Shown piece after piece: positions 6,528-23,031 of a stretch of 64,000 bases of DNA. How positions within the stretch are numbered: position 1 is the stretch's first letter; each line of letters starts with the position of its first letter. The position numbers were made by a program, and so were the translations under genes. Source of the DNA: Acidobacteriota bacterium (GTDB lineage Bacteria; Acidobacteriota; Blastocatellia; Pyrinomonadales; Pyrinomonadaceae); the NCBI GenBank assembly GCA_025463135.1, contig JAOAPY010000036.1, positions 1 to 64,000 of the forward strand, given 5' to 3'. The notes beneath the pieces were generated by a model that saw only the letters and a program-made list of their open reading frames with translations, searched no databases and was not told the DNA's origin.

Positions 6528-9137
6528 ATGAAAACAAAGTCTTACAACCGATCTCGAATTGGCATAATAGCTTTATCGCTTGTCTTTGCGCTTGTTTCGA
6601 TGCCGGTCCTTGCTCGACGCCCGCCAGCCGGACAAGTTCAGATCCAGCAGCACGCTGTAAGGCCGCTGCCGCCAACGCAATATATTCCCAGTCACGACTA
6701 CGACACGACGCATATTGCGCTGACTCTGCACTTTGATTGGGAGCGCGAACAGACGGCCGGTACGGCAACGATTAGTTTCGCGCCGTTGGTAAAAGACTTG
6801 AACACGGTCGAATTTGACGCGGCCAACATGACCTTCGGCGGTGTGAAGTTGTCTTCGGGATCGTCTCTCAAGTATGAAGCCGACGCTGAGAAGCAAAAAC
6901 TGCGCATCGTTTTGGACCGCGCGTATCAACCGTCCGAAAACGTCACGCTGATTATCGATTATCACACTAATGGCCCTGTGCCGAAGCTGGTGGGTCTGGT
7001 AGGTGGGGGCTTGAAGTTTATTAAACCGACACCTGATGATCCCACGCGCCCAAAACAGATCTGGTCGCAAGGTGAGACTGAATATAATCATTATTGGTTT
7101 CCCAGTTACGATCACCCGAATGATTTTTTCACGACCGAGATAACCGCCACTGTCGAAAAGCCTCTGACTGTAATCTCGAACGGCAAACTTATTGAAACCA
7201 AAGATAGTGGAAATGGCGAGCGAACTTTCCATTGGAAGATGGACCAACCGCATGCCGGCTATCTGACTTCGATCGTTGTCGGTGAGTTCACGCCGGTGGT
7301 GCAGGACTATGCGGGTATTCCGGTGATCACCAACGTCTACAAGAACGAAGTCGCCGAAGGAAAAGTAACCGCAGCGCGTCTGGCCGAGATGGTGAAGTTC
7401 TTTTCAGAAAAGACCGGGCTTAAATATCCTTATGCCAAATACGCGCAGACTACAGTGCGGGATTTTGGCGGCGGGATGGAAAACATCAGTGCCACCACGC
7501 AGACGGACAATATGATTCACGACGCGCGAACCGAACTTGATCAGACGCAGGACGGATTGCAATCGCACGAACTCGCCCACCAATGGTTCGGCGATTACGT
7601 GACTTGTCGTTCATGGTCCGACATCTGGCTCAATGAAAGCTTCGCCACGTATTTTCAGGCCATGTGGGATGAGCATCACCTGGGCCATGACGATTTTCTT
7701 TACCTGGACGTGAAAGGGAATCAGGATCAGTACTACACCGCCTGGCGGTCAGGCAGTCGCCGGCCCATCGTAACCAAAAACTATCTGACCCCGGATTCTG
7801 TCTTTGACACCTACGCATATCCACGAGGCGGGGCTGTGCTGCACATGTTGCGTACCTGGTTGGGCGAGGATAATTGGTGGCGGGCCATCAATCATTATCT
7901 GACGAAGTACGCCCACCAACCGGTCGACACCGAGGAGTTTCGCATTGCCATCGAGGAATCGACGGGTCAGTCCATGGACTGGTTTTTTGATGAGTGGCTG
8001 TACCGTATGGGCCACCCGGTTTTTCAAATCACCAAAAACTATGATGCTGTTACGCGAAAGTTAACCCTGACAGTCAAACAGACGCAGAAGGTCGATACTG
8101 AATGGCTGTATCCACAAGCCGGCTTGTTCCAGACACCGGTCGACGTCGAAATTGTGACCGGCAAGAGCGCTCGAGTCGAACGCGTAAACGTCGAAGCCAA
8201 AGAGGAGCAATCTTTTATCTTTGCTGCCGACTCTGAACCGCTGCTGGTTAATTTTGACTATGGCAACACACTCATCAAGCAAGTCGAATTCAACAAGTCG
8301 ACGGCAGAGTTGATGTACCAGGCCTCTCGCGACTCGGATGTTATGGGTCGGATGTGGGCGCTGGCCCAACTGACTGAAAGGATGCAAAACGAGGTTACCG
8401 CGGTTTCGGATCGCGACGTGATTGCGACTCAGGTGGCGGAGGTGCTGACGAAGGACAAGTTCTGGGGCATGCGCCTGGAAGCAGCGAAGACCCTCTCGAG
8501 GGGAGGCGAAATCGCCCGACGGGCATTAGTCTCGGCGACCGCGGAACAGAATGCTCGGGTTCGTGCGCAGGTGCTAACCTCGTTAGGAGCGTCCAGGGAT
8601 CCGGCCCTGAGTAAGATATTTCTTCAATCTCTCAACGACCAGAGTTATGCAGTAATAAGGGCAGCGTCGCTGGCCCTGGGTGATACGAAGAGCCCGGAAG
8701 CGTATGAAGCCCTGAGCAGCCTACTCGAAGTGCCGTCCTGGCGAGATACGATTAAAGTGTCCGCACTGAACGGTTTGACAGCTCTAGGGGACAAGCGGGC
8801 GCTGGACGTAGCCCTGCGCTTGTCAGAAAAGGGAAACGCAGCTGCGGTCAGGGCCGGAGCCTTGAGGTTGTTAGGCGCATCCGGGAATAACGATCCCCGC
8901 GCCTTTGTCGCTTTGTCCGAAACGCTCAGAGAGGCCTTCGCGAAGGGAGATCTGGTAATTTCCACCGCTGCGGCTGAAGGGTTAGTGAAAGCGGGTGATG
9001 ATCGAGGGCTGGCTCTGCTTGAAGAATTGCTAAAAAAGCCTGAAGGCTTGCCGCAAATTCGCACTGTCCTGACTCAATTGTCAGAAAGCTTTCGCCGCAA
9101 TGCACTTGGTCCCAAAAACGATGCAGCGCATCCCTAA
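6528..9137 (+). CDS. Secreted M1-family aminopeptidase with C-terminal HEAT repeats
   Basis: This is an 869-residue zinc aminopeptidase of the gluzincin clan. A signal peptide (about residues 1-29, ending VLA) sends it out of the cytoplasm. The M1 N-terminal beta domain is followed by the exopeptidase motif GGGMEN (Glu318). The zinc site is H347-E348-x-x-H351 with the third ligand Glu370 in WLNESFATYF. Residues about 600-860 form Ala/Leu-rich helical pairs typical of HEAT repeats (for example DPALSKIFLQSLNDQSYAVIRAASLALGD), replacing the usual ERAP-like C-terminal domain. It probably degrades peptides in the periplasm. It is transcribed alone; 9138-9462 after it holds only a possible promoter for the next gene. 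Confidence 0.92.
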   Translation: MKTKSYNRSRIGIIALSLVFALVSMPVLARRPPAGQVQIQQHAVRPLPPTQYIPSHDYDTTHIALTLHFDWEREQTAGTATISFAPLVKDLNTVEFDAANMTFGGVKLSSGSSLKYEADAEKQKLRIVLDRAYQPSENVTLIIDYHTNGPVPKLVGLVGGGLKFIKPTPDDPTRPKQIWSQGETEYNHYWFPSYDHPNDFFTTEITATVEKPLTVISNGKLIETKDSGNGERTFHWKMDQPHAGYLTSIVVGEFTPVVQDYAGIPVITNVYKNEVAEGKVTAARLAEMVKFFSEKTGLKYPYAKYAQTTVRDFGGGMENISATTQTDNMIHDARTELDQTQDGLQSHELAHQWFGDYVTCRSWSDIWLNESFATYFQAMWDEHHLGHDDFLYLDVKGNQDQYYTAWRSGSRRPIVTKNYLTPDSVFDTYAYPRGGAVLHMLRTWLGEDNWWRAINHYLTKYAHQPVDTEEFRIAIEESTGQSMDWFFDEWLYRMGHPVFQITKNYDAVTRKLTLTVKQTQKVDTEWLYPQAGLFQTPVDVEIVTGKSARVERVNVEAKEEQSFIFAADSEPLLVNFDYGNTLIKQVEFNKSTAELMYQASRDSDVMGRMWALAQLTERMQNEVTAVSDRDVIATQVAEVLTKDKFWGMRLEAAKTLSRGGEIARRALVSATAEQNARVRAQVLTSLGASRDPALSKIFLQSLNDQSYAVIRAASLALGDTKSPEAYEALSSLLEVPSWRDTIKVSALNGLTALGDKRALDVALRLSEKGNAAAVRAGALRLLGASGNNDPRAFVALSETLREAFAKGDLVISTAAAEGLVKAGDDRGLALLEELLKKPEGLPQIRTVLTQLSESFRRNALGPKNDAAHP

Positions 9138-9462: not shown

Positions 9463-10233
9463 ATGATCGCTGACAGACAGAACAAACCACTCAGGGAAAA
9501 CCACTCTTTAGTCGATTCGGGCGACCATAAAGTTTCTTTACTTGTGGTTGAGGACGACCAAAACATTTCAACCGCGATTAGTGAGTACTTTTCTCGCGCA
9601 GGCTACAGCGTGAAAACCGTGGAAGACGGATTAGCAGGTGTCAAAGCGGCATTGGACGATCGTCCGGATGCCGTAGTGCTCGACCTGATGCTTCCCAAAA
9701 TGGATGGTCTGGCCGTTTGCAAGGAATTGCGGGAAAAGATTAGTTACCTGCCGATTCTGATGCTTACAGCAAAGGACGACGTGGTTGATAAAGTGCTGGG
9801 GTTAGAGATGGGCGCGGACGATTATATTACCAAGCCTTTTAGCCTGAGAGAACTTGAAGCACGCATTAAGACGGTTCTCCGACGCACGCACAATGCCGCT
9901 GCCGCAGCAGACGGTCTGAATAACGAGGCGCCAATAGTTCGCGGAAAGCTGCGTATCGATGCAGAGAAACGAGAAGTTTCAATTGGTGACCGTGAAGTTG
10001 AATTAACACCCAAAGAGTTTGATTTGCTGAAACTCTTTGCTTCGAACCCGGGTAGGGTGTTTCCGCGTAAGTACCTGCTGGAAAAGATCTGGGACTACTC
10101 TTACGAAGGCTATGACCGTACGATTGATTCACATATTAATCGGCTGCGAGCCAAAATTGAGGACAACCCGGAAAACCCACAAATGGTTCTGACCGTTTGG
10201 GGCATCGGCTACAAATTCAGCGACGAGCACTAA
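9463..10233 (+). CDS. OmpR-family response regulator (receiver plus winged helix)
   Basis: The 256-residue regulator has a receiver domain at about 24-137 with acidic residues E30-D31-D32, phospho-acceptor Asp74 (VVLDLMLPKMDG), Thr102 and Lys124 (YITKPF). A winged-helix DNA-binding domain follows at about 155-255 (KEFDLLKLFASNPGRVFPRKYLLEKIW, then the RTIDSHINRLRAKIED recognition helix). The first 22 residues are extra and a later start is possible. No histidine kinase is adjacent; the nearest on this strand is at 31286. It lies 162 bases before gene A and could control or be co-transcribed with the A-B-C cassette, though this is inference. Confidence 0.93.
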   Translation: MIADRQNKPLRENHSLVDSGDHKVSLLVVEDDQNISTAISEYFSRAGYSVKTVEDGLAGVKAALDDRPDAVVLDLMLPKMDGLAVCKELREKISYLPILMLTAKDDVVDKVLGLEMGADDYITKPFSLRELEARIKTVLRRTHNAAAAADGLNNEAPIVRGKLRIDAEKREVSIGDREVELTPKEFDLLKLFASNPGRVFPRKYLLEKIWDYSYEGYDRTIDSHINRLRAKIEDNPENPQMVLTVWGIGYKFSDEH

Positions 10234-10395: not shown

Positions 10396-12801
10396 ATGCG
10401 CAAGCCTGACTCGTTAAAGATCAACGCAAAATTAGCGGCATCGATTCTGGTGCTCATCGGGCTGAGTTTTACGCGCGGTGCTGATTCGCAGGCGCAGGAG
10501 TACCGAGGTGAGCCCGTCACAGTATCGAGCGTCTCCAGTCGTGCTGCGGCCAACGGCACCGTCGTGTCGATTGCCGCGGATGGGCCACTGAACCGAGCCC
10601 AGACCTGGCAGGACCGCGAAGGTTACCATGTAGTCGTGCCGTCGGCCGGTACGCAAAACGCAATCAAGACCGGCAATGGAATAAAAGTCAGGCAGTTGGA
10701 TCGTTCACTCGAAATTGTGATCCAGACCAAGCCGGGTGCCAACGTCACCGTGCAGCCAACCGGCAACCGTCTGAATCTGAACGTGGACGGAAAGCTCGAT
10801 CCGCGCGAAACGGAAAACCAAAACGCAAAGTCAGAAGCAACGCCGCGAGTTGACGATGGACTCAGCGCCGACAGCTCCAAGGTGGCACGCCTAAACAAGA
10901 CCACAGGCGCCGACTCGCCGTCAGCTAAGAACGAATCCAATCAAACCACCCCTGCCTATTCTGGTCCAGCGGTTAGTTCACCTGCCGCCGCGGAATCAAC
11001 ACAAGACCTAAAGGGCCAGTCAGAAATGCCCACCGGAGAATCAAGTGTCATGTCAGGCGCAACAGTTTTGATAGCACTCGGTCTGGCCTGCATTGGCCTT
11101 CTGGTTTTGCATCGCCGGCGCTCCAGCGCCGCAGTCGCCGTAAGGGAAGAAGACGACGGCTTTGAGATGATTGATGACTTTGGGGAATCTCGCTCAACGG
11201 GCGCCGCCGCAGTCAAATCAGGAAGGAATAATGAAGGCCCGGAAAATCTTATGAAGCTCAGTACGTCAGCAAGCAACGGTGGGTCGCCACAAAGGAAGAC
11301 GCCGGCCCGTCTGCCCGTAGCCATGCCGGTCTCTTTGTATGGGGCTTACCAGGTCGATATGGAGATTGGAAAATTGGTGCAGGGCCACGCGCACAGAATT
11401 GATGTGATTGGTTCACGCGCGCCCGACGATCGTCGCGCTATCGAGGCTTCATTGCTTAAAATGTTGTCCTCGGGGGCGGCAGATGAAGAATTGCAGCGCC
11501 GCGCCCGCGGTGCTTTGGAAGAATATGGTTTTGTTGCTCGGCAGAGTGCGGCGCTGCTCACGGCTTCCGATCCTTACGAGCGTACTTCGGCAGCAAGAAT
11601 GCTCGGCGACGTGAAGTCACCTGCCGCGCTGCCGTTCCTCCTCGAAGCTCTTTACGATCATGAATCGCTGGTACGGAATCAGGCTGTGCTTAGCATTGGC
11701 GAACTCCGGTTGCCGTCAGCAATAGGCGCCCTCCTGGATATCGCTCGCAAACACCCGGATGTACCAGGCTCGCTGTTGAGTCGCGCGCTCAGTGCGTGCT
11801 CAGTGGAAGGATTGGACTTTTTCGACGCCGGTATTCCCGCCCCTCGCCTACTCAACGGAGTCAATGCTCGCCTGCTGGCAGAGGAAATCACCAATCTCGA
11901 GCCGGCGGCAACCTTCGAAGATCTACCGGAATCGGCGGATGAAGAGAGATTTGTACAGGCTTTGGCGCAAGTTCAGAGTGAGGACCTAAGCGAACGCTCA
12001 GAGGCCATCAAGGTGCTCGGCCAATTCTCGGTACGAAGTTCCGTCACAGCCCTGGCGAAAGTGGCGGGTCTGGATCCGGAAGCAAGTCTTAAAGCGTTGG
12101 CCATTTCAAGCCTGGCTTTCATCAATCATGAATCTGTTTTTCCGGCGATCCTAATCGCCATGGCGGACGAATCGCGCGAGGTGCGCGCGGCAGCCGCCAG
12201 ATCGTTATCGCGATTGAGCTTTGATCGCGCCGATGCCTACATCCGCGTGACGGAAACCGACGATGTCGAATCTTTGCGCGACGTCGCCGAAGCTTGCATC
12301 AAGGCTGGAATTGCCACGCAAGGCATCGACAAGATGAGTAGCGGCGATCACCAGGCCTACGAGTCCATGGCTGTAGTGTCTTTGCTCGTAAAAGCAAAAC
12401 GATTCGAGCCACTGCTTGAGGCGATGACTAATCATTCGGATTTGGATGTGCGCCTGGTGGCTATCCATATTCTGGGATTAGCGGGCGAGCGGTCGCTTAT
12501 TGAATCGCTGCGACAGTTGCTGGACAATTCCCACGACGATATAGTCAGCGAAGCTCTACTGGAAGCTATCACGCGGTTGGAAATGCCTCGGGAGGCTCAG
12601 CAGACTGAGAGCGCATCCGATTGTGAGTTGGAAGGCCAGCCGATCAACGAAGTCGCCGTGACCACGAACGATGAAGTGGAACAGGAAGCAGGATACGACT
12701 TCGTATCACAGCCTGTAAGTCAGACCGAAAACCAACCTCCACCCGAGCCTGCTCTAACGGAAGTTGAGAGCTCTGGACTGCCGGCGCCCCCGATTGCATA
12801 A
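10396..12801 (+). CDS. Protein A: AMIN-like domain, TM helix and cytoplasmic HEAT repeats
   Basis: The product is a membrane protein of about 801 residues, not a known family by full architecture. A signal-anchor or signal peptide (NAKLAASILVLIGLSF) leads into an AMIN-like beta domain at about 40-135 (QTWQDREGYHVVVPSAG, LDRSLEIVIQTKPGANVTV). A Ser/Thr-rich linker follows, then a TM helix near 220-240 (ATVLIALGLACIGLLVL) ending in RRR, which puts the C-terminus in the cytoplasm. Residues about 314-770 are HEAT-like. AMIN domains in AmiC and secretins bind cell-wall or envelope components. The domain resembles that of protein B, and the HEAT region resembles both ends of protein C. The start is uncertain: an upstream ATG at 10312 keeps frame, but 10396 gives the better signal sequence. 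Confidence 0.8.
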   Translation: MRKPDSLKINAKLAASILVLIGLSFTRGADSQAQEYRGEPVTVSSVSSRAAANGTVVSIAADGPLNRAQTWQDREGYHVVVPSAGTQNAIKTGNGIKVRQLDRSLEIVIQTKPGANVTVQPTGNRLNLNVDGKLDPRETENQNAKSEATPRVDDGLSADSSKVARLNKTTGADSPSAKNESNQTTPAYSGPAVSSPAAAESTQDLKGQSEMPTGESSVMSGATVLIALGLACIGLLVLHRRRSSAAVAVREEDDGFEMIDDFGESRSTGAAAVKSGRNNEGPENLMKLSTSASNGGSPQRKTPARLPVAMPVSLYGAYQVDMEIGKLVQGHAHRIDVIGSRAPDDRRAIEASLLKMLSSGAADEELQRRARGALEEYGFVARQSAALLTASDPYERTSAARMLGDVKSPAALPFLLEALYDHESLVRNQAVLSIGELRLPSAIGALLDIARKHPDVPGSLLSRALSACSVEGLDFFDAGIPAPRLLNGVNARLLAEEITNLEPAATFEDLPESADEERFVQALAQVQSEDLSERSEAIKVLGQFSVRSSVTALAKVAGLDPEASLKALAISSLAFINHESVFPAILIAMADESREVRAAAARSLSRLSFDRADAYIRVTETDDVESLRDVAEACIKAGIATQGIDKMSSGDHQAYESMAVVSLLVKAKRFEPLLEAMTNHSDLDVRLVAIHILGLAGERSLIESLRQLLDNSHDDIVSEALLEAITRLEMPREAQQTESASDCELEGQPINEVAVTTNDEVEQEAGYDFVSQPVSQTENQPPPEPALTEVESSGLPAPPIA

Positions 12802-12835
12802 TGCAGTCGGCAGCGTCTTTCCCCCATTTGCCCCA

Positions 12836-14119
12836 ATGAACTCATCACAAACTCAGCACTCAGGATCGCAAAGCAACAGGCGCGGAACTGTCTTGACTCT
12901 GTCGCTTTCTCTCGTTGTTTGTTTCAACCTGCTGCCCGTCATAGCCCAGGTAAGGAGCCCCAAGCGCATCACTTCAGTTTGGACCGCTACGACTGCTGAA
13001 GGCTCCAGGGTGCATGTAGTCTCGGACGCCCCCGTAAATGATTACGAAGGCTACACGCGCGGCGGGCGCTTTTACGTGAAGATTCCCCTGGCGGATCTGC
13101 CTACAGCACGTGGCAGTTTGCTGGGACGCGGCTTTGATGACGTACAGATCCAACGGTATGGAGACGGCATCATCATTTCCTTTCGGCTGCAACCCGGAAC
13201 TTCCGCACGAGTGGAACAAGCGGCCAATCGGCTGGAAATTGTTTTCACAACACCAGCTGGTTCAAGAAGTGCGGTGGCCGGAGCCAGAGAAACCGACGAT
13301 GCTAATCGTACGCGCGCACGACGAATTGCGGACTCTGCCGGTCCTTCTCCGGCAACGTCACCTGCCTCTGCCCGGGAAGAAAGATCGATACGCCGGCCCA
13401 GCGGCCACCGTCACCTCCGATCGGGTGCTGGCGCCGTGGGTACGACCAGCAGAGTGGAAACTGCTCGAAACAGCGGCAGTTCCGGAGTCAAGGGAAGCAA
13501 GCCTGAGCGGGATAGTCGGAATTCCGGTCCAGCGGAAAAAGGAACGCCCACTCGACCCAATACTGAAGTGTCCTCTGGGGCTTCAACCTCTGCCCGCCCC
13601 ACTCCGGCTGCAACACCAACCAGGACCCCGTCCAGTCTTTCGGGCTCCGCTTCACCTGCGGGCACACCAGCCTCGGTCGCAACGCCGCGACCCAGCGAAT
13701 CCTACAGCCAACTCTCGTCATCGCCTACTCCAAATAAAACCGCGACGACAAGAGACAACGATTGGAAGAGTCGAGCCCATTATTGGAGAGTTTGGGCAGA
13801 GTTGAATTGGCTGCCGATACTGATCGGTGTCCTCGTCGCCCTGGCTTTGTTGGTGCTGCTCTTTTTCTGGCGCGCTGCTAAGCGCAGCCGCGGCGATGCC
13901 GCCGATTGGGATGAATCATCAAACGAAACAGTAGCTTCAACGAAAGCGGCGCCGGAATCTCTAACCGCCGGGGCATCACAATCAGTCGACCCAACGCCCG
14001 TCGCGCCTGTACAAACTCAAACAGCGGCAGCAGGACAAACACATTCGTCGAACGCAGCGCCCAGCGAACAAGTAAACCATCAGGGCGAGGAAGCAGAGCG
14101 GGAGGTTTTTGAACTATGA
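12836..14119 (+). CDS. Protein B: AMIN-like domain, Pro/Ser/Thr-rich linker, TM helix
   Basis: This envelope protein of about 427 residues begins with a signal sequence (GTVLTLSLSLVVCFNLLPVIAQ). Residues about 45-140 form an AMIN-like beta domain (RITSVWTATTAEGSRVHVVS, then GRGFDDVQIQRYGDGIIISF). It aligns by eye with protein A, sharing the pattern V-x-I/V-x-D-x-P-L/V-N and LQPGTSARVEQAANRLEIVF. A Ser/Thr/Pro-rich stretch of about 180 residues could span the periplasm. A TM helix (LPILIGVLVALALLVLLFFW, about 324-344) ends in RAAKRSR and leaves an acidic cytoplasmic tail of about 80 residues. The gene is 34 bases after A and overlaps C by four bases (ATGA), so translation of B and C is likely coupled. 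The start at 12836 avoids a 72-base extension inside A. Confidence 0.8.
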   Translation: MNSSQTQHSGSQSNRRGTVLTLSLSLVVCFNLLPVIAQVRSPKRITSVWTATTAEGSRVHVVSDAPVNDYEGYTRGGRFYVKIPLADLPTARGSLLGRGFDDVQIQRYGDGIIISFRLQPGTSARVEQAANRLEIVFTTPAGSRSAVAGARETDDANRTRARRIADSAGPSPATSPASAREERSIRRPSGHRHLRSGAGAVGTTSRVETARNSGSSGVKGSKPERDSRNSGPAEKGTPTRPNTEVSSGASTSARPTPAATPTRTPSSLSGSASPAGTPASVATPRPSESYSQLSSSPTPNKTATTRDNDWKSRAHYWRVWAELNWLPILIGVLVALALLVLLFFWRAAKRSRGDAADWDESSNETVASTKAAPESLTAGASQSVDPTPVAPVQTQTAAAGQTHSSNAAPSEQVNHQGEEAEREVFEL

Positions 14120-17100
14120 GTGTCGAGTTTCTATTTCAACTTTGCGCGCAACACGGTATCAAGTTGACGCTGGCAACCGATGGCAGCGATCGCCTCCTGG
14201 TGGACGCCCCTAAAGGGTCCTTAACGCCCTCTCTGCGCGAAGCCTTAACCGCTCACAAACCCGAGTTGATTGCGGCTCTTAAAGCTCAGTCGCAGGCCGA
14301 CGCTGAATCAGTCACCGTGGTGCGAGCGGAGGTTGAGGCAACAACCACGGCTGCGCCTGCAGTCGAGCCTGACGTCGCCGTGCCTGCTGTCCACAGTAGT
14401 GCTAGGCCGGCTGGATCGACAAAAGCGAATTCAGAAGCAGGTCAATTGGAACGTGCCGAGGTCGAGGTCAGGAATCTTCTCGAGGGACGCAGCTATGACG
14501 TGCAGGTGCTCGATGCCTCAGACACAGCCACGCGTCAGGTAATAGCAACGGCCCTGCTTTCAGCCTTCTCGGATCCGAATACGGAGCAGCAGGGACGGGC
14601 CAGACAGGGATTTTTGGACCACGGATATTTTGATGAAACCACGCGAGAGCTGCGGACCGCGGATTCTCCGGCAGCACGCGCGGCCGCGGCGCGCAAGTTA
14701 GGCGCGGCCGGCAGCCGGCTGGCCACTCCGCACGTCATTGCGGCGTTGAGCGACACCGCTCCCGAAGTGCGACGCAGTGCCGTCGAAGCGTTGGGCGCGA
14801 TTGGCGACCCCGCTGCAGTGGCGCCCCTGAATGACCTCGTGGTGCGCGAGACGAGCCGCCAGGTGCCTCCGAGCGCAGTTCGACAGGCCATCGACTCCAT
14901 TACTGCCGTTGTGTCTCCCATGGCGGCCGTTAGCGAAGCCTCGCCTGAAGCGGTGATCTCGGAACCTATCAGTGAAGCCCATGATACGAATGATGCTTCA
15001 TCATCTACCGAAGTCGCTCCGCCAGAAACCGCAGAACCTTCTTACACCGAGAAGTTGTCACTCGAGGAAGAGAGCCTTCTATTGGAAGAAGAAGCGCTTC
15101 GCAAAGCTGTCGAGGAAGTTGAACTGAGAAGGTTGGCGGCCGAAGCTGCGCGTAAAGAAGCTGAGCAGGAAGCGCGGTTGAAAGCCGAACAGGAAGCCGT
15201 TGCCAGGGCGGACGCTGAACAGCGCCGTCTGGTCGAAGAACTGGCTCGCAAACAGGCAGAGGAAGAAGCGGCCCGCCGCCTGGCTGCGGAAGACGCACGC
15301 ATGAAGGCAGAGGAGGAAGCCCGGGCCAGGGCTGAAGAAGAAGCGCGCAACCGCGCTGAAGAGGAAGATCGTTTCCGCGTCGAAGCGGAAACGTTGAGGA
15401 GAGCCGCGGAAGAACTTGCCAGGAAGAGAGTCGCCGCCGAAGCAGCACGTAAAGAGGCGGAAGAAGCAGCGCGTCTTCGCGCCGAGGAACTCGCTCGCCG
15501 GCAGGCCGAAGAAGAAGCGGCCCGCCAGCACGCCATAGCTGAAGCGCTGCGCCACGCCAAAGAGGAAGTTGCCCGTCGTATGGCTGAAGAAGCTCGACTG
15601 CGCGCGGAAGAGGAAGCCCGACTGCGCGCAGAAGAAGAAGCTCGACTGCAAGCAGAAGAAGCCCGACTGCGTGCCGAAGAGGAAGCCCGCCTACGCGCGG
15701 AAGAGGAAGCTCGGCAACGTGCCGCGGAAGAGGCGCGCCGACTGGCTGAGCAAGAAGCCCTCCGTTTGGCTATCGAAGAAGAAGCCCGCCAAGCCGCGGA
15801 GCGACGACGCCGTCAAGAAGAAGAGCGACTGCGCATAGAGGCTGAGGCCCTGCTACAGGCTGCAGAGGCGGTCGCGCGTCAGAGAGCAGAGATTGAAGCG
15901 GCCCGTCGTAAGACTGAGGAAGATGCGCAACGTCTGGCCGAAGAACAGGCGCGCATGCAGGCGGAGGAGGAGGTTCGTCGCCAGGCCGAAGCAGAGCGAC
16001 TGAGAATTGCTGCTGAAGTAAGTCAGCGCGCGGAAGCGGAGCGTCGCCGTCTCGAAGAGGCGCGCGCCCACGCTGAAGCAGAACAGCGGCGCATGGAAGA
16101 AGAGGCCCGACGGTACGCCGAAGAAGAAGAGCTGCGCCTGGCCGCGCTTGAGGCGGTAAAGCAGAAGGCTCAGGAGGATCTGGTCCAGCGCGTGGAAAAG
16201 GAACAGCGCATCCGCAGTGAAATCGAAGCCTTGCGCCAGGCTGAAGAGCAGCAGCGCCAGCGTATTCAGGAAGCGGAAAATCGTCGCAAGACGGAATCCG
16301 AAGCGCGTCGCCAGACGGAAGAACTGGCCCGTCTGAAGGCCGAAGAACAACAACAACTGCGGGCCTGGGAAGAAGCACGGTTGCTGGCCGAGGAAGAGGT
16401 TCATCGGCAGGCCGAGGCGGAGCGTCAGCGGTTGGAAGCGCAGCGGTTGCGGGTCGAGGAAGAGAGGCGTCGCACTGAAGAAGAACGTGAGCGTCTCGAA
16501 GCCGAGATGCGCCAGCGTACGGAAGAAGAGGAGCGTCACCTGGCGGCCCTGGAAGCCATTCGTCATCAGGCTGAGGAACAGGCGCGTGCTCGTGCGGAAA
16601 AAGCATTGCAGATGCAGAGCGAGATCGAGGCCCTGCGTCAGGCAGAGGAAGTCCGTCTGAGAGCGGAAGAGGAAGCCCGCTTACGCGCCGAAGAACAGCG
16701 TCACGAGTTCGAAGAGGCGCGGCGTCTTGCGGAAGCAGAGCGCGCGCAAGTCGAAGCCGAAGTAAGGCAACACGCCGCTGAGCGCGAGAATCAACTCGGG
16801 GCTCTCGAATCATTGCGCGAACAGGCGAAACTGGACGCGCAGATCCGCGCGGAACGCGAACTCCAGGTGCGCGCTGAAATTGAAGTGCTGCAACAGGCGG
16901 AGGAAGTGCAACGCCGGCAAATAGAAGAAGCCGAGAGTATTCGGCGCGAAAAGGCCCAGCAACTGCAACGAGAAGAAGAGGCCCTGCGGCAAACCGAACT
17001 GGCGCTGCAACAACATCGGGCCGAAGTAGCGGCGATCCGGAGAAAGGCGGAAGAGGAAACTGAGATGCTCGCTAAAGAGCAGGAACGTCTCAGGCTCGAG

Positions 17101-18453
17101 GAAGAAAGCCGTTCGTCCGCCGAAGAAGAGCGCCGCCGGCTGGAAGTCGAAACCCGCCATCGCGCTGAAGAAGAAGAGCGAACCCGGCTGCATGAATCCC
17201 GCCGGCGCGCTGAAGAAGAAGCCCAGAGAATTGAAGAAGAATCCCGTCGCCGCGCAGACGAAGATGAACTCAAACAGGCCGAGTTGCAGATGCTGCGCCG
17301 GAAAGTTGAAGAAGAAACGCGCAACCGGGCCGAGCAGGAAAGACGGATTCGAGTCGAAATCGAAGAGCTCAACAGGGCCGGCGAAGAGCAACGCCGGCGA
17401 CTCGAAGCGCAAGCCGGACTGCGAGCGGAAGCTGAAGCTCGGCTTAAGCTGGAAGAAGAACGCCACGCAGCCGAAGAGCGGGCGCGGCTAAAAGCTGAAG
17501 AAGACGCGCGCCGTTTGGCTGAAGGTGCGGCCCGGCGTCGTGCCGAGACCGAGCGGCAACGCCTCGACCTGGAAGCGGAACGGGCGGCTAATGAAGAAGC
17601 CCGACGCTTTGCCAACCGGCCGCCTTCTCCCGTCGTTGCTGAACCCTCTGATCAGTCGCAGTTGTCAGTTGATGAGTTGCCTGCGTTGGAATCTGAATGG
17701 ATGGATGTCGATCTGGAACAGCCTCGTCTCTCAGTGCGGCCGCTTTCCGGCCCGGCACTCCAGTATGAAACCAGCGAGCCGACCCCCGCCGCCCACGTCA
17801 TTCAGGCGCATGAGATCGAGGTGGTCCGCGAAGAGAAAGGACTGCTGGCAGTCGACGAGGAATCCGCCGGCGTGCCCTCAGAAATTCTCAAACGGCTCAA
17901 AAGTGAAAATTCAACAGACCGAGCGGCGGCGCTGACAGAACTCAGCCAAACGGGCGGCGAAGATTCGTTCCACTTGATCAATAGGTCGTTTGACGATGCC
18001 GCACCTGAAGTTCGCAATGCCGCAGCTCGGGCCCTGCACGATGTTCAGTCCGATCGGGCGGCTTCGTTCACAAGGGCGCTTCGGGAAGGTTCGCCGGAAC
18101 GAAGACGAAAGATTGGCGCCGCGTTGGCCGATTCCGGTCTGGCGAGTCAGGCTATCAACAATCTTACCGGTGAGAGTCGAGAGCGCACTTACGATGCATT
18201 TTCACTCTTGTTCCTGATGGCCAAGGCGGGAGAAGTGCAGCCATTGATGCGCGCGATCGAGGACCACGCCAACATCGAAGTTCGCCTGGCCGTCGTTAAG
18301 CTGCTGGCCCTGAGCGGCCAGTCGGAAATCGTGCCCGCGTTCCGCCGCCTGGCGGTCCGTGGATCGTTGCCTTCGGAAGTGAGATCGGCAGTCATGGAAG
18401 CGATATACCAGATCAGCAGCCAATCCCGCGAGACGGCCCATTCGGCCGCTTAA
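14116..18453 (+). CDS. Protein C: TubC_N-like domain, HEAT repeats split by a giant coiled coil
   Basis: This is a 1445-residue predicted cytosolic protein with no signal or TM segment. Residues about 3-55 resemble the TubC N-terminal docking domain of NRPS/PKS enzymes (FLFQLCAQHGIKL, then APKGSLTPSLREALTAHKPE). Residues about 112-266 hold a region homologous to protein A (LLEGRSYDVQVLD, then HEAT repeats ADSPAARAAAARKLG and APEVRRSAVEALGAIGD). About 315-1163 is an almost unbroken Ala/Glu/Arg coiled coil (EEEARLRAEEEARLR-type), long enough for roughly 120 nm if fully helical. About 1254-1445 returns to HEAT repeats matching the C-terminal part of A. It is the last gene of the cassette, followed by a strong terminator. 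Likely a scaffold or filament-forming partner of A; function unknown. Confidence 0.85.
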   Translation: MSVEFLFQLCAQHGIKLTLATDGSDRLLVDAPKGSLTPSLREALTAHKPELIAALKAQSQADAESVTVVRAEVEATTTAAPAVEPDVAVPAVHSSARPAGSTKANSEAGQLERAEVEVRNLLEGRSYDVQVLDASDTATRQVIATALLSAFSDPNTEQQGRARQGFLDHGYFDETTRELRTADSPAARAAAARKLGAAGSRLATPHVIAALSDTAPEVRRSAVEALGAIGDPAAVAPLNDLVVRETSRQVPPSAVRQAIDSITAVVSPMAAVSEASPEAVISEPISEAHDTNDASSSTEVAPPETAEPSYTEKLSLEEESLLLEEEALRKAVEEVELRRLAAEAARKEAEQEARLKAEQEAVARADAEQRRLVEELARKQAEEEAARRLAAEDARMKAEEEARARAEEEARNRAEEEDRFRVEAETLRRAAEELARKRVAAEAARKEAEEAARLRAEELARRQAEEEAARQHAIAEALRHAKEEVARRMAEEARLRAEEEARLRAEEEARLQAEEARLRAEEEARLRAEEEARQRAAEEARRLAEQEALRLAIEEEARQAAERRRRQEEERLRIEAEALLQAAEAVARQRAEIEAARRKTEEDAQRLAEEQARMQAEEEVRRQAEAERLRIAAEVSQRAEAERRRLEEARAHAEAEQRRMEEEARRYAEEEELRLAALEAVKQKAQEDLVQRVEKEQRIRSEIEALRQAEEQQRQRIQEAENRRKTESEARRQTEELARLKAEEQQQLRAWEEARLLAEEEVHRQAEAERQRLEAQRLRVEEERRRTEEERERLEAEMRQRTEEEERHLAALEAIRHQAEEQARARAEKALQMQSEIEALRQAEEVRLRAEEEARLRAEEQRHEFEEARRLAEAERAQVEAEVRQHAAERENQLGALESLREQAKLDAQIRAERELQVRAEIEVLQQAEEVQRRQIEEAESIRREKAQQLQREEEALRQTELALQQHRAEVAAIRRKAEEETEMLAKEQERLRLEEESRSSAEEERRRLEVETRHRAEEEERTRLHESRRRAEEEAQRIEEESRRRADEDELKQAELQMLRRKVEEETRNRAEQERRIRVEIEELNRAGEEQRRRLEAQAGLRAEAEARLKLEEERHAAEERARLKAEEDARRLAEGAARRRAETERQRLDLEAERAANEEARRFANRPPSPVVAEPSDQSQLSVDELPALESEWMDVDLEQPRLSVRPLSGPALQYETSEPTPAAHVIQAHEIEVVREEKGLLAVDEESAGVPSEILKRLKSENSTDRAAALTELSQTGGEDSFHLINRSFDDAAPEVRNAAARALHDVQSDRAASFTRALREGSPERRRKIGAALADSGLASQAINNLTGESRERTYDAFSLLFLMAKAGEVQPLMRAIEDHANIEVRLAVVKLLALSGQSEIVPAFRRLAVRGSLPSEVRSAVMEAIYQISSQSRETAHSAA

Positions 18454-18560
18454 GAAGAGCAAGGAGCGAAGGGCAAACAGCAAGTCGAGGGGTGAACTTC
18501 GAGTCAGCACCACCTGCGTTAGCGGGTGGGTGGATAAGACAGAGACCGTCCTGCGATTAG

Positions 18561-18606
18561 ATCGTGAATGGAGCACTACTCAGCTTCATTCACGATTTTT
18601 CTTTTC
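18561..18606 (+). terminator. Rho-independent terminator of the A-B-C cassette
   Basis: ATCGTGAATGGAGC pairs with GCTTCATTCACGAT across an 8-base loop (one G-T pair), followed by TTTTTCTTTT. It lies about 110 bases past the stop of protein C. The rest of 18454-18747 has no gene; an AGGAG ribosome site precedes the next ATG. Confidence 0.85.
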
Positions 18607-18747: not shown

Positions 18748-21700
18748 ATGAAAACACTTACGTTCCTCGTTCGTCAGTCGTCACTGACGTTGTGCGTTGT
18801 TCTTTTTTCAGTGTTGGCCACGACGGCTCAAACACTCACCTTCAATTACCAGGGCAAACTACCCGATGAATACAATCAACCAACCGGGTCCTTTGATTTT
18901 CAGTTCAACTTGTACGACGAAGTCAACGGCACAAACGCGCCACTTAATGCCACACCAATTGTTCTTGAGGACGTGGCAGTAATAAACGGCATGTTTAGTG
19001 TATCGCTCAACTTTGGCAGTCTCTTCAGCAACGGCGCTGATCGCTACCTGGAAATCGGAGTACGACCCGGCGACAGCACCGGAGCCTTCACCACGCTGGA
19101 CCCGCGGAAGCAAGTCACTTCGGCTCCATACACTATTCGCAGTTTATCTGCTGCGACTGCGGACGCTGCCACCAACGCTGAAAACTTAGGCGGGACTTCT
19201 TCCAGCGACTTTGTGCAGACAACGGATCCGCGGTTGACGGATCCACGACTGCCGATTCCGGGCAGCAACGACTACATTCAAAACACGACCAGTGTGCAGT
19301 CTGCTGCGAACTTCAACATCGACGGCACCGGTACCGCGAACGTGCTCAATGCTTTGACGCAATTCAACATCGGCGGTAATCGCGCTCTGAGCGTTGCTGG
19401 CGAAGGAAATATTTTTGCCGGCCTCGATAGTGGCCACAGCAATACGAATGGTAACAATAACTCATTTTTTGGGTCCGGTGCAGGTCAAACCAATAATACC
19501 GGATTCCGCAACTCGTTTTTCGGGTCAGGGGCGGGCTCCAGCACTGGAACAGGACACAACAACGTGTTTCTTGGAGGAAGCGCAGGGGCGACGAATACGA
19601 GCGGAAGCTTCAATGTGTTCATCGGTGAAAGTGCTTTCGTCAATAACACCGGATTCAATTTCGCGGGTACCAGTAGTTATAACACTTTCGTGGGCGCCAT
19701 TTCGCAGGTCACACCCGGGAATGCTCTCTTCTTCGCCAGCGCCATTGGTGCGCGCTCCGTAGCCACCGCGAGCGATACGATAGTCCTGGGAAAAATTGCC
19801 GGCGTCTATGACGGTGTCTCACGGCCGGCTGACACGGTGCAAATTCCCGGATCCTTACAAGTCACAGGATCGGTTACTGCTAGCAACTTCAATGGTGCAG
19901 CGTTAACGAACATCAACGCCTCCAATATCACCACCGGCACTCTCGACAACGCTCGACTTAACGTCATACCGATCAGCAAAGGCGGCACGGGATTAACATC
20001 GGTAGGCGCCAACGGAAGTTTCCTGCGCAGCAACGGTACAGCCTTTACGAGTTCTGCTTTGCAAGTAGGGGACGTGCCCGATTTGAGCGCGAGCTACATT
20101 CGCAATCAAACAGGCTCGGCCCAAAGCGGCGGTTTCAATCTTTCGGGCAACGGCACGGCCACTGTGTTCAATGCGACGACCCAATTCAACATCGCCGGCA
20201 CTCGTGTTCTGAGCGTCTCAGGAACCAACAATACTTTTACGGGCGTTAATGCCGGCACTGCTAACGTCACCGGAGCGGACAACGCTTTCTTTGGTTCAGA
20301 CGCTGGTAGAGTCAACACGTCGGGTACTGACAATGCCTTTTTTGGAGTGCAATCCGGCCGCCAGAATACTTCTGGTGGGAACAACTCATTCTTTGGCGTG
20401 AATACGGGTTACGGTAATACGTCCGGACACAGCAACTCGTTTGTCGGTATGCAGGCGGGCCAGAGCAATACAGCCGGTCACAATAACTCCCTCTTCGGCT
20501 ATATTGCGGGTATCAATAACGCAACCGGCAACTTCAATTCAGTCTTTGGTTCCAACGCCAATGTTGGTTCAGACAATCTCTCCTATGCTGGAGCAATCGG
20601 CTCAGGAGCTCTTGTGAATGCGAGCGACACGATTGTTTTAGGGAAGGTTGCGGGAATATATGACGGCGTATCACGATCGGCGGACACGGTACAGGTTCCG
20701 GGCAACTTGAACGTCGTGGGAACAATTTCCGGCAACATTGATGGAGCAAACCTAACTAATCTGAATGCCTCAAACATAACGACTGGAACGCTTGCGGATA
20801 GCCGCCTCTCTTCAAATATCGCGACACTTTCCGGGGCGCAAACCTTTACGGGCGCCAAGACCTTTGCAAACGGCATCAATGGCGACGGCTCAGGCTTAAC
20901 CGGACTAAACGCCAACAACATCACCAGCGGAACTCTCGACAACGCTCGGCTTGGAATAGTGGGAGTCGCCAATGGCGGAACAGGCTTAACGACAGTTGGA
21001 GCAAGTGGAAATTTCCTGCGCAGCAATGGCGCGGGTTTTACGAGTTCAGCACTGGCGGCCACAGATATTCCGGCCGGCAACACAAACTACATTCAAAACA
21101 CCACGACGCCGCAAACCGGAGCCAACTTCAATGTTTCGGGCAATGGTGTCGTGGGAGGCGATCTTTCGGTAAGTGGGTCACTCAACGCGAGTGGTTCCGG
21201 CTTAACCAATCTCAATGCCGCGAACCTGACAAGTGGGACGCTCGATAACGCGAGGCTGGGTTCGATTCCGACGGCGAACATTGCCGACAGCGCTATCACG
21301 GCGCCGAAGATAGGGGGCTCAGCGGTAACGACCACGAAAATTGCCGACTCAGCCGTGACGGCGGCGAAGATTGCCAGCAACGAAGTGGTCAAGAACCTGA
21401 ACGGGCTGACGGATAACGTGACGTTAGCGGCGGGCGATAATGTGACAATCACGCCAGCGGGTAACACTCTGACGATTGCGACCAACGGCGGCAACTTCAT
21501 TCAAAACTCAACCACTCAACAACCTGGCAGTAACTTCAACATTACGGGCAACGGCTTGGCCGCGAACCTGACCGCCAGCGGCGCGTTATCGGGAAGCGTT
21601 GTCAATACCGCGACGTACTTCAACATCGATGGAAATAGGGTCTTGTCGCAACTCGGCAGCAACAATATTTTTGTCGGCTATCAAGCCGGCTTGAACAACA

Positions 21701-23031
21701 CCACCGGCGACCGAAATGCGTTCTTTGGGATCACAGCGGGCAGAAACAACATCTTAGGACATACCAATTCCTTTGTTGGCTTCCAGGCGGGATACAACAA
21801 TACGAGTAACTCAAACGCGTTTTATGGAGCCTACACTGGCTTAGCCAATACTGAAGGCTACTACAATGCTTTCTTTGGCACGAGCGCGGGTTACAGCAAC
21901 ACGACTGCCGGTAACAACTCTTTTTTCGGCACAAACGCAGGCTTTACCAACACGACGGGTTACGGAAATTTATTTCTCGGCTCCTTCACTGGTTATTACA
22001 CCACAACGGGCTACAACAACTCGTTTGTCGGCACAAACTCCGGCCTGGCAAATACGACCGGAATTGCCAACACCCTGCTCGGGGCGAACTCTAATGTCGC
22101 CGCCAATAACCTTTACTTTGCTACCGCTATTGGCTCCGAAGCAACGGTCAGCACGAGCAACACGATTGTATTAGGACGCACCGCGGGGCAAGATACTGTT
22201 CAGATTCCGGGCAGCGTCGGGATTGGCACCTCAACTCCTAACGCCCAACTCCACATCATGACTCCCAGCACCTCGGGAGACGCGCTAAGGCTACAGCGGA
22301 ACGTTAATACTAACGGCTGGGGCGTGGCCCAGTACTTCGGTCTGAAAAATAGCAGTAGCGGTGCAACTGACTATGCCGCCATCACTGGGTCAATCATGAA
22401 CAATACTGCCGGCTCCGAGAGCGGCGCGATGGCGTTTTATACACGTAACGCTGGGACGCTGACTGAGCAGGCGAGGTTGGACAACAACGGTAACCTTGGC
22501 ATTGGCACGACTTCACCTACAGCCAAACTTCATGTTGCCGGAACCACCACGGTTGACGGAATTCTAAAACTGAACGCGCTCGGTACTGCGGGTGGGAGTA
22601 GTCTCTGCCGCAATTCATCCAATCAAGTCGCGGCCTGCTCGTCCAGCTTACGTTACAAAACAAACGTCGCTCCGTTCACATTTGGCTTGAGTCTGGTGCG
22701 ACGCCTGCGCCCGATTCGGTTCGCGTGGAAAGACGGCGGCATGAAGGATCTCGGATTTGGCGCCGAGGACGTCGCTGGTGTTGAACCCTTGCTCGTGACC
22801 TACAACGCGAGCGGCCAGGTCGAAGGCGTCAAGTACGATCGCATCTCAGCGGTTCTGGTGAACGCCGTCAATGAACAACAAACGCAAATCGAGAAGCAAC
22901 AGACACGGCTGGAATTGCAACAAGCGCAGATAAAGGCGCAACAAGCACAAATCAATCAACAGCAGGTCCTAATCGACGGGTTGAAGAAAGTGCTTTGCCG
23001 CCAAAACTCCCGCGATCCCGTTTGTCAGTAG
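18748..23031 (+). CDS. Giant secreted fibre protein with C-terminal S74 intramolecular chaperone domain
   Basis: This 1427-residue repetitive surface or secreted protein begins with a signal peptide (about 1-28). A beta-rich N-terminal domain ([21 protein letters not shown]) follows. Then come three long modules, each with YIQNxT-type and xxFNIxGNR-type segments. They lead into many short NNSFFGxxAGxxNTTG repeats like trimeric adhesin (YadA-head) or tail-fibre shafts, and linkers with [11 protein letters not shown]. Near 1299-1304 the motif SSLRYK places Ser and Lys five residues apart, as in the self-cleaving S74 chaperone of endosialidase tail spikes. The domain continues with [14 protein letters not shown] and ends in a Gln-rich coiled coil. 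It likely trimerises and releases this end. No phage structural genes are near, so it looks like a cellular surface fibre. Confidence 0.85.

Follow-up and report, generated by a model that had tools for sequence, protein, structure and literature searches.

Organization of the A–B–C locus and domains of its products

Three genes, hereafter A, B and C, lie on the forward strand of the window, the 64,000-nucleotide stretch of DNA that was analysed; the regulator, the parts of A, B and C and the hairpin given below lie on the same strand. Gene A (10396–12801) encodes an 801-residue protein with a signal or anchor segment, an AMIN-like domain, a membrane helix and two HEAT blocks; gene B (12836–14119) encodes a 427-residue protein with a signal or anchor segment, an AMIN domain, a Ser/Thr/Pro-rich linker, a membrane helix and a short tail predicted to be cytoplasmic; and gene C (14116–18453) encodes a 1445-residue protein composed of a TubC_N docking domain, a first HEAT block, a long charged helix and a second HEAT block. 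As stated in the original prediction, the genes are tightly packed: the open reading frames place A and B 34 bases apart, and the stop of B and the start of C share the four bases ATGA (14116–14119).

The OmpR-type response regulator that had been placed upstream of A is present (9463–10233; Pfam Response_reg and Trans_reg_C domains), with no adjoining kinase gene; its top NCBIfam profile is RpaB-like, with a score under that profile's cut-off. None of the single-gene loci described below has it. Since it is kept beside A in at least 22 of the 25 informative loci, this putative control of A–B–C is plausible. A shared terminator had also been proposed: a hairpin of 16 pairs with a T-rich tail is found at 18559–18598, but the number of sites in the terminator scan as a whole is not above that in shuffled sequence.

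The A–B–C order, whose conservation had been expected if the three genes belong together, is kept in related genomes (named according to GTDB: Pyrinomonadaceae and other Acidobacteriota MAGs), as is, within the family, the neighborhood groEL–SAICAR synthase–(DinB)–(M1 peptidase)–response regulator–A–B–C–uvrB–FAD oxidase–chorismate synthase. The M1-family peptidase, encoded in the window two genes upstream of A (6528–9137), also has C-terminal HEAT repeats; roughly half of the loci retain the peptidase upstream of the regulator. Between C and uvrB, the window contains a gene (18748–23031) for a repeat protein of 1427 residues that has an S74 endosialidase chaperone domain at its C-terminus; the gene was not seen at this place in the relatives examined. 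Note that in some relatives (L203, L204, L205, L206 and L208) other proteins are encoded between the regulator and uvrB in place of A–B–C: one with TPR repeats, one of the DUF4388 type, one of unknown kind and a short HEAT protein that is related to the last block of C.

The outer domain of B (12944–13273) was folded with AlphaFold from 34 sequences, relatives of both A and B (mean pLDDT 89.5). Compared with known structures, the model matches 5h3k (Z 12.8), AmiC (4bin, Z 12.6) and PilQ (3jc8, Z 11.9; 4aqz, Z 10.6), and the highest-ranking match of unrelated fold is a small heat shock protein at Z 8.0; the modeled domain thus has the AMIN fold. The assignment was made through structure because the Pfam AMIN profile (PF11741) is borderline: its best E-value is 0.027, it appears in three of the 34 members, in none of which it reaches the cut-off, and it has no match in the A or B of the window. 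The AMIN alignment had no match among PDB sequences, and no AMIN relatives were found elsewhere in the genome of the window. The outer domain of A (residues about 40–133; 10513–10794) is termed AMIN-like because it is homologous to that of B (26% identity over 94 residues, E 2e-6); a model of A displays a beta domain at residues 42–131, with pLDDT mostly above 90. The claims that A and B share an AMIN-like outer domain and that B is a second membrane protein of this kind therefore hold; the profile check proposed with them gave a strong result for HEAT but, as above, a borderline one for AMIN.

In hydropathy analysis, A and B both show a hydrophobic segment at the N-terminus and, further on, a single membrane helix, at residues 220–243 of A (11053–11124, followed by Arg-rich residues) and 326–344 of B (13811–13867, hydropathy 3.12); the model of A consistently shows a signal helix at 6–26 and a membrane helix at 221–250. 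The same scan finds no membrane helix in C. Because basic residues come after both membrane helices, the HEAT parts, as well as the B–C docking discussed below, are predicted to lie on the cytoplasmic side. The AMIN domain is predicted to anchor to peptidoglycan. The envelope-to-cytoplasm scaffold envisaged at the outset fits this topology.

The HEAT blocks of A span residues 317–468 (11344–11799; HEAT_2, E 5.8e-29, and model) and 517–741 (11944–12618; Pfam and model). In C, HEAT block 1 (residues 111–262; 14446–14901; HEAT_2) corresponds to a block that is fused behind the membrane helix of B in relatives, and HEAT block 2 (residues 1263–1440; 17902–18435) is homologous in 20 aligned relatives, with a mean column identity of 69%. 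At E <1e-20, 83 of the 119 family genomes have this last block, a count that takes in A and the single-gene relatives too. It also occurs elsewhere: in one genome (G055, L099:3296–5257), a Ser/Thr protein kinase is fused to a C-type HEAT block 2, a possible hint of a signaling role, and genus g3 has at a separate locus (L194, L195, L196, L200 and L201) an extra long protein of about 1100–1545 residues, in which helical stretches precede a terminal HEAT block 2 like that of C.

Between its HEAT blocks, C contains a Glu/Arg/Ala-rich stretch predicted to form a long helix (residues 309–1180; 15040–17655), which was studied by charge-pair and periodicity analysis. Because E–R pairs at i+4 are enriched (z 10–15) and heptad hydrophobic periodicity is not found (power at period 3.5 is only 0.2), this region is more likely to be a charged single alpha-helix than a coiled coil. 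Thus, of the soluble coiled-coil protein proposed earlier, the lack of a membrane helix stands and the coiled coil is the less likely form. If helical throughout, these 870 residues would be about 130 nm long. Several fused relatives have a probably disordered Ala/Pro/Glu linker as their spacer.

Paralogy of A and BC, and fused and split loci

The similarity between the inner HEAT regions of A and C proved significant in a within-genome search (E 9.5e-18 for block 2 against block 2, and 8e-6) and is collinear, A 312–482 corresponding to C 111–290 and A 566–728 to C 1269–1433. A tree built from HEAT block 2 separates the C copies, all in a single clade, from A (100/100). A and B+C moreover have one layout (signal peptide, AMIN, membrane helix and two HEAT blocks), from which BC is set apart by the long spacer between the HEAT blocks. 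Because the shared regions are collinear, the C copies form a clade of their own and an AMIN domain and a membrane helix precede both, A and BC are, at the sequence level, tandem paralogues, duplicates of an AMIN–membrane helix–HEAT–HEAT protein. These AMIN–HEAT envelope proteins are an undescribed family in Pyrinomonadaceae; the literature searched contained no paper joining AMIN and HEAT, TubC and HEAT, Pyrinomonadaceae and HEAT, or DUF3631 and docking. Within the family, the A of genus g3 (L040, L044, L045, L057 and L059) is devoid of the AMIN domain, B and C being retained, and in another set of genera (L060–L070) a single protein of about 350–460 residues, with a membrane helix and HEAT repeats, occupies the place of A–B–C.

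In 11 related loci (L042, L043, L046, L047, L049, L050, L052, L053, L054, L056 and L071), BC is one uninterrupted gene encoding AMIN, membrane helix, HEAT, spacer and HEAT. Five further loci look fused and are kept outside this count, being affected by frameshifts, N runs or contig ends (L038, L048, L051, L055 and L058); L039, whose sequence ends inside HEAT block 1, was treated as fused in the state tree. BC is split in 10 loci, the window included, and the cut falls at either of two positions: before HEAT block 1 in three loci (window, L034 and L035) and after it in seven (L036, L040, L044, L045, L057, L059 and L072). On a concatenated tree, where the fused L058 falls among split relatives, at least three changes between split and fused are required, or four if the cut position is counted, so that the 10 split loci do not represent 10 independent events. 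Since neither A nor the single-gene relatives are cut, a fused ancestor is slightly favored over a split one. The possibility that the B/C cut of the window is a sequencing error was rejected: the tail at the junction is complete and comes with a gene overlap and a new domain, and nine other genomes have the cut too.

These data bear on the original prediction that A bridges three separate proteins, contacting B through the AMIN domains outside and C through the HEAT repeats inside. The shared domains and the conserved gene order speak for such a bridge, which we nevertheless consider improbable: collinear tandem duplication accounts for the domain sharing, the A of genus g3 has lost its AMIN domain in loci where B kept its own, and the link between B and C does not need A, since both form a single gene in 11 loci. 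The contact supported by the sequences is that of B with C, through a docking tail and a TubC_N domain at the gene junction.

A predicted docking joint between B and C

B ends with REVFEL-COOH (14099–14116), a conserved ending of the short linear motif (SLiM) type, and C begins with a TubC_N, or beta-hairpin docking, domain (residues 1–56; 14116–14283; PF18563, E 3e-9 over residues 5–56). The original prediction, which recognized the HEAT parts, had missed both this domain and the matching tail. All 10 split loci combine three features: (i) a B ending in [ED]REV[FI]E[LI]-COOH; (ii) the identical four-base ATGA overlap; (iii) a C starting with TubC_N. Neither a B-type tail nor TubC_N is found in any fused BC gene. 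The co-occurrence is thus strict. Among the 499 complete open reading frames of the fetched loci, the looser ending [ED]RExxE[LI] occurs in nine, each a B from outside the window. In a survey of 119 family genomes, the scaffold TubC_N profile matched 11, namely the 10 with a split BC and one with a nonribosomal peptide synthetase (NRPS; G083).

The TubC_N profile built from the 10 relatives matches docking domains of known structure (EpoB 5t7z, E 2e-10; 6cgo; AerJ 8aqq; TubC 2jug), and 14 of its columns are invariant among these relatives, including R26 and D30, which are the equivalents in C of R24 and E28 on strand β2 of Kj12C. In the published Kj12 complex, the five C-terminal residues of the tail form a strand antiparallel to β2, secured by two salt bridges, to R24 and E28 (PMC6195595, PMC9113145). 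Setting R26 of C opposite the tail residue E(−1) puts D30 opposite R(−5). In 21 tail/domain pairs, residue 30 is an arginine in four, and R30 never meets a tail R(−5). This charge match between tail position −5 and residue 30 is no more than suggestive, because register and tails were picked after inspection. In FR-901375 biosynthesis, the contribution of the tail is modest beside that of the docking domain (PMC13324335), and the B tail alone may therefore be weak too.

We consider it very probable, from sequence comparisons, that A and BC are paralogous scaffolds and that, where BC has been cut in two, as it is in some soil Acidobacteriota of the Pyrinomonadaceae, a docking joint of the type used by NRPSs and polyketide synthases (PKSs) recreates the fused protein. 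In the proposed mechanism, the AMIN domain would hold the envelope side of a scaffold that comprises an outer AMIN domain, a single membrane helix and inner HEAT solenoids; REVFEL-COOH would add an antiparallel strand to strand β2 of TubC_N at the N-terminus of C. The cytoplasmic tail of B would apparently dock in this way onto C, substituting for a peptide bond, and C would therefore be recruited by B to the cytoplasmic side of the membrane. Docked B and C would work beside the paralogue A like the fused BC of relatives, and A/BC as a whole would serve as a tether or spacer between envelope and cytoplasm. The physical binding of B to C is a prediction, the structure models being those of single chains.

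Two other readings of the junction can be weighed against this joint. The B tail might serve another partner, as a protease recognition tail or a PDZ-type ligand, the TubC_N of C binding an NRPS or some other protein. PDZ domains can read hydrophobic-X-hydrophobic-COOH endings, and the B tail has this form. We regard this as very unlikely: the tail is present only where TubC_N begins the next gene and is missing from fused BC; the TubC_N of C is the only one in the window genome, so that this genome has no TubC_N-bearing NRPS; and in NRPSs and mobile-element genes, too, these tails stand before TubC_N. Least credible of all is that B and C are co-expressed without binding, TubC_N being the leftover of a recombination with an NRPS gene; this domain is indeed best known from NRPS/PKS systems, but its 14 invariant columns include both salt-bridge positions, the B tail is conserved too, and in a TubC_N-only tree, which has too few columns, the scaffold copies group weakly with those of mobile elements rather than with those of NRPSs.

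Within the phylum, the joint that we favor for B and C recurs: NRPSs and mobile-element DUF3631 proteins have it, and this membrane scaffold has it at two different places. In related genomes, the NRPS genes upstream of TubC_N encode the tails NREEIEL, AREYGEL and DREEGEI. Tail, ATGA overlap and TubC_N may together be a portable joint, dropped into the linkers of unrelated long proteins and giving two docked subunits, a generalization from these occurrences to which we give an even chance.

The joint seen in the window was also noted outside its family, in further families of this phylum. In L107 (1066–1656 and 1656–3146, reverse strand) and L141 (2–1492 and 1492–1902, forward strand), DUF3631 proteins end with EREVFEI or DREVFEL, and the gene of a small TubC_N protein follows with the ATGA overlap. 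L143 has a gene whose product ends with DREHFEL before TubC_N, a candidate for the same joint. Short TubC_N genes also follow AAA/DnaB-like, DUF3631 or VapE-like proteins with different tails (L118, L121, L122 and L148), and in L121 excisionase-like and integrase-like open reading frames lie downstream of the short TubC_N gene.

Relation to known systems

The SLiM/TubC_N docking pair is already known; none of the papers searched described such a pair in a membrane scaffold outside biosynthesis, with uncut relatives and two cut positions. Beta-hairpin docking pairs have been studied as the glue of antibiotic assembly lines, and the scaffold described here is unrelated to biosynthesis. The uncut chain of relatives provides a natural control, by which the same protein can be compared fused and docked; the scaffold loci also supply new tail/domain pairs, and the joint hints at a general way of splitting large proteins.

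An AMIN fold on the outer side of the membrane is common to A/B, the amidase AmiC and the secretin PilQ. A and BC differ in tying the AMIN domain, via one membrane helix, to HEAT repeats predicted to be cytoplasmic. With its single membrane helix and long charged helical spacer, BC resembles TolA, and the TolA profile matches C weakly, through composition and under its cut-off (E 9e-7). Unlike TolA, however, C has no membrane helix, its spacer is predicted to be cytoplasmic, and HEAT blocks replace the TolA C-terminal domain.

The closest likeness in the B/C junction is to the docking pairs of NRPS and PKS–NRPS systems (TubB–TubC, EpoA–EpoB, Kj12A/B/C and Bamb_5917/Bamb_5915), which, like B and C, are encoded by adjacent genes; in both, the upstream subunit ends with a short acidic-hydrophobic tail, the downstream one starts with TubC_N, and the β2 salt-bridge positions are the same. 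Unlike in these systems, the upstream partner is a membrane AMIN protein and the downstream one a scaffold of HEAT repeats and charged helix; Pfam searches of A, B and C detected no carrier, condensation or adenylation domain, so that B/C differs from NRPS pairs in having neither carrier protein nor condensation domain. Finally, the scaffold has relatives in which the chain is uncut, and its joint lies at two different linkers.
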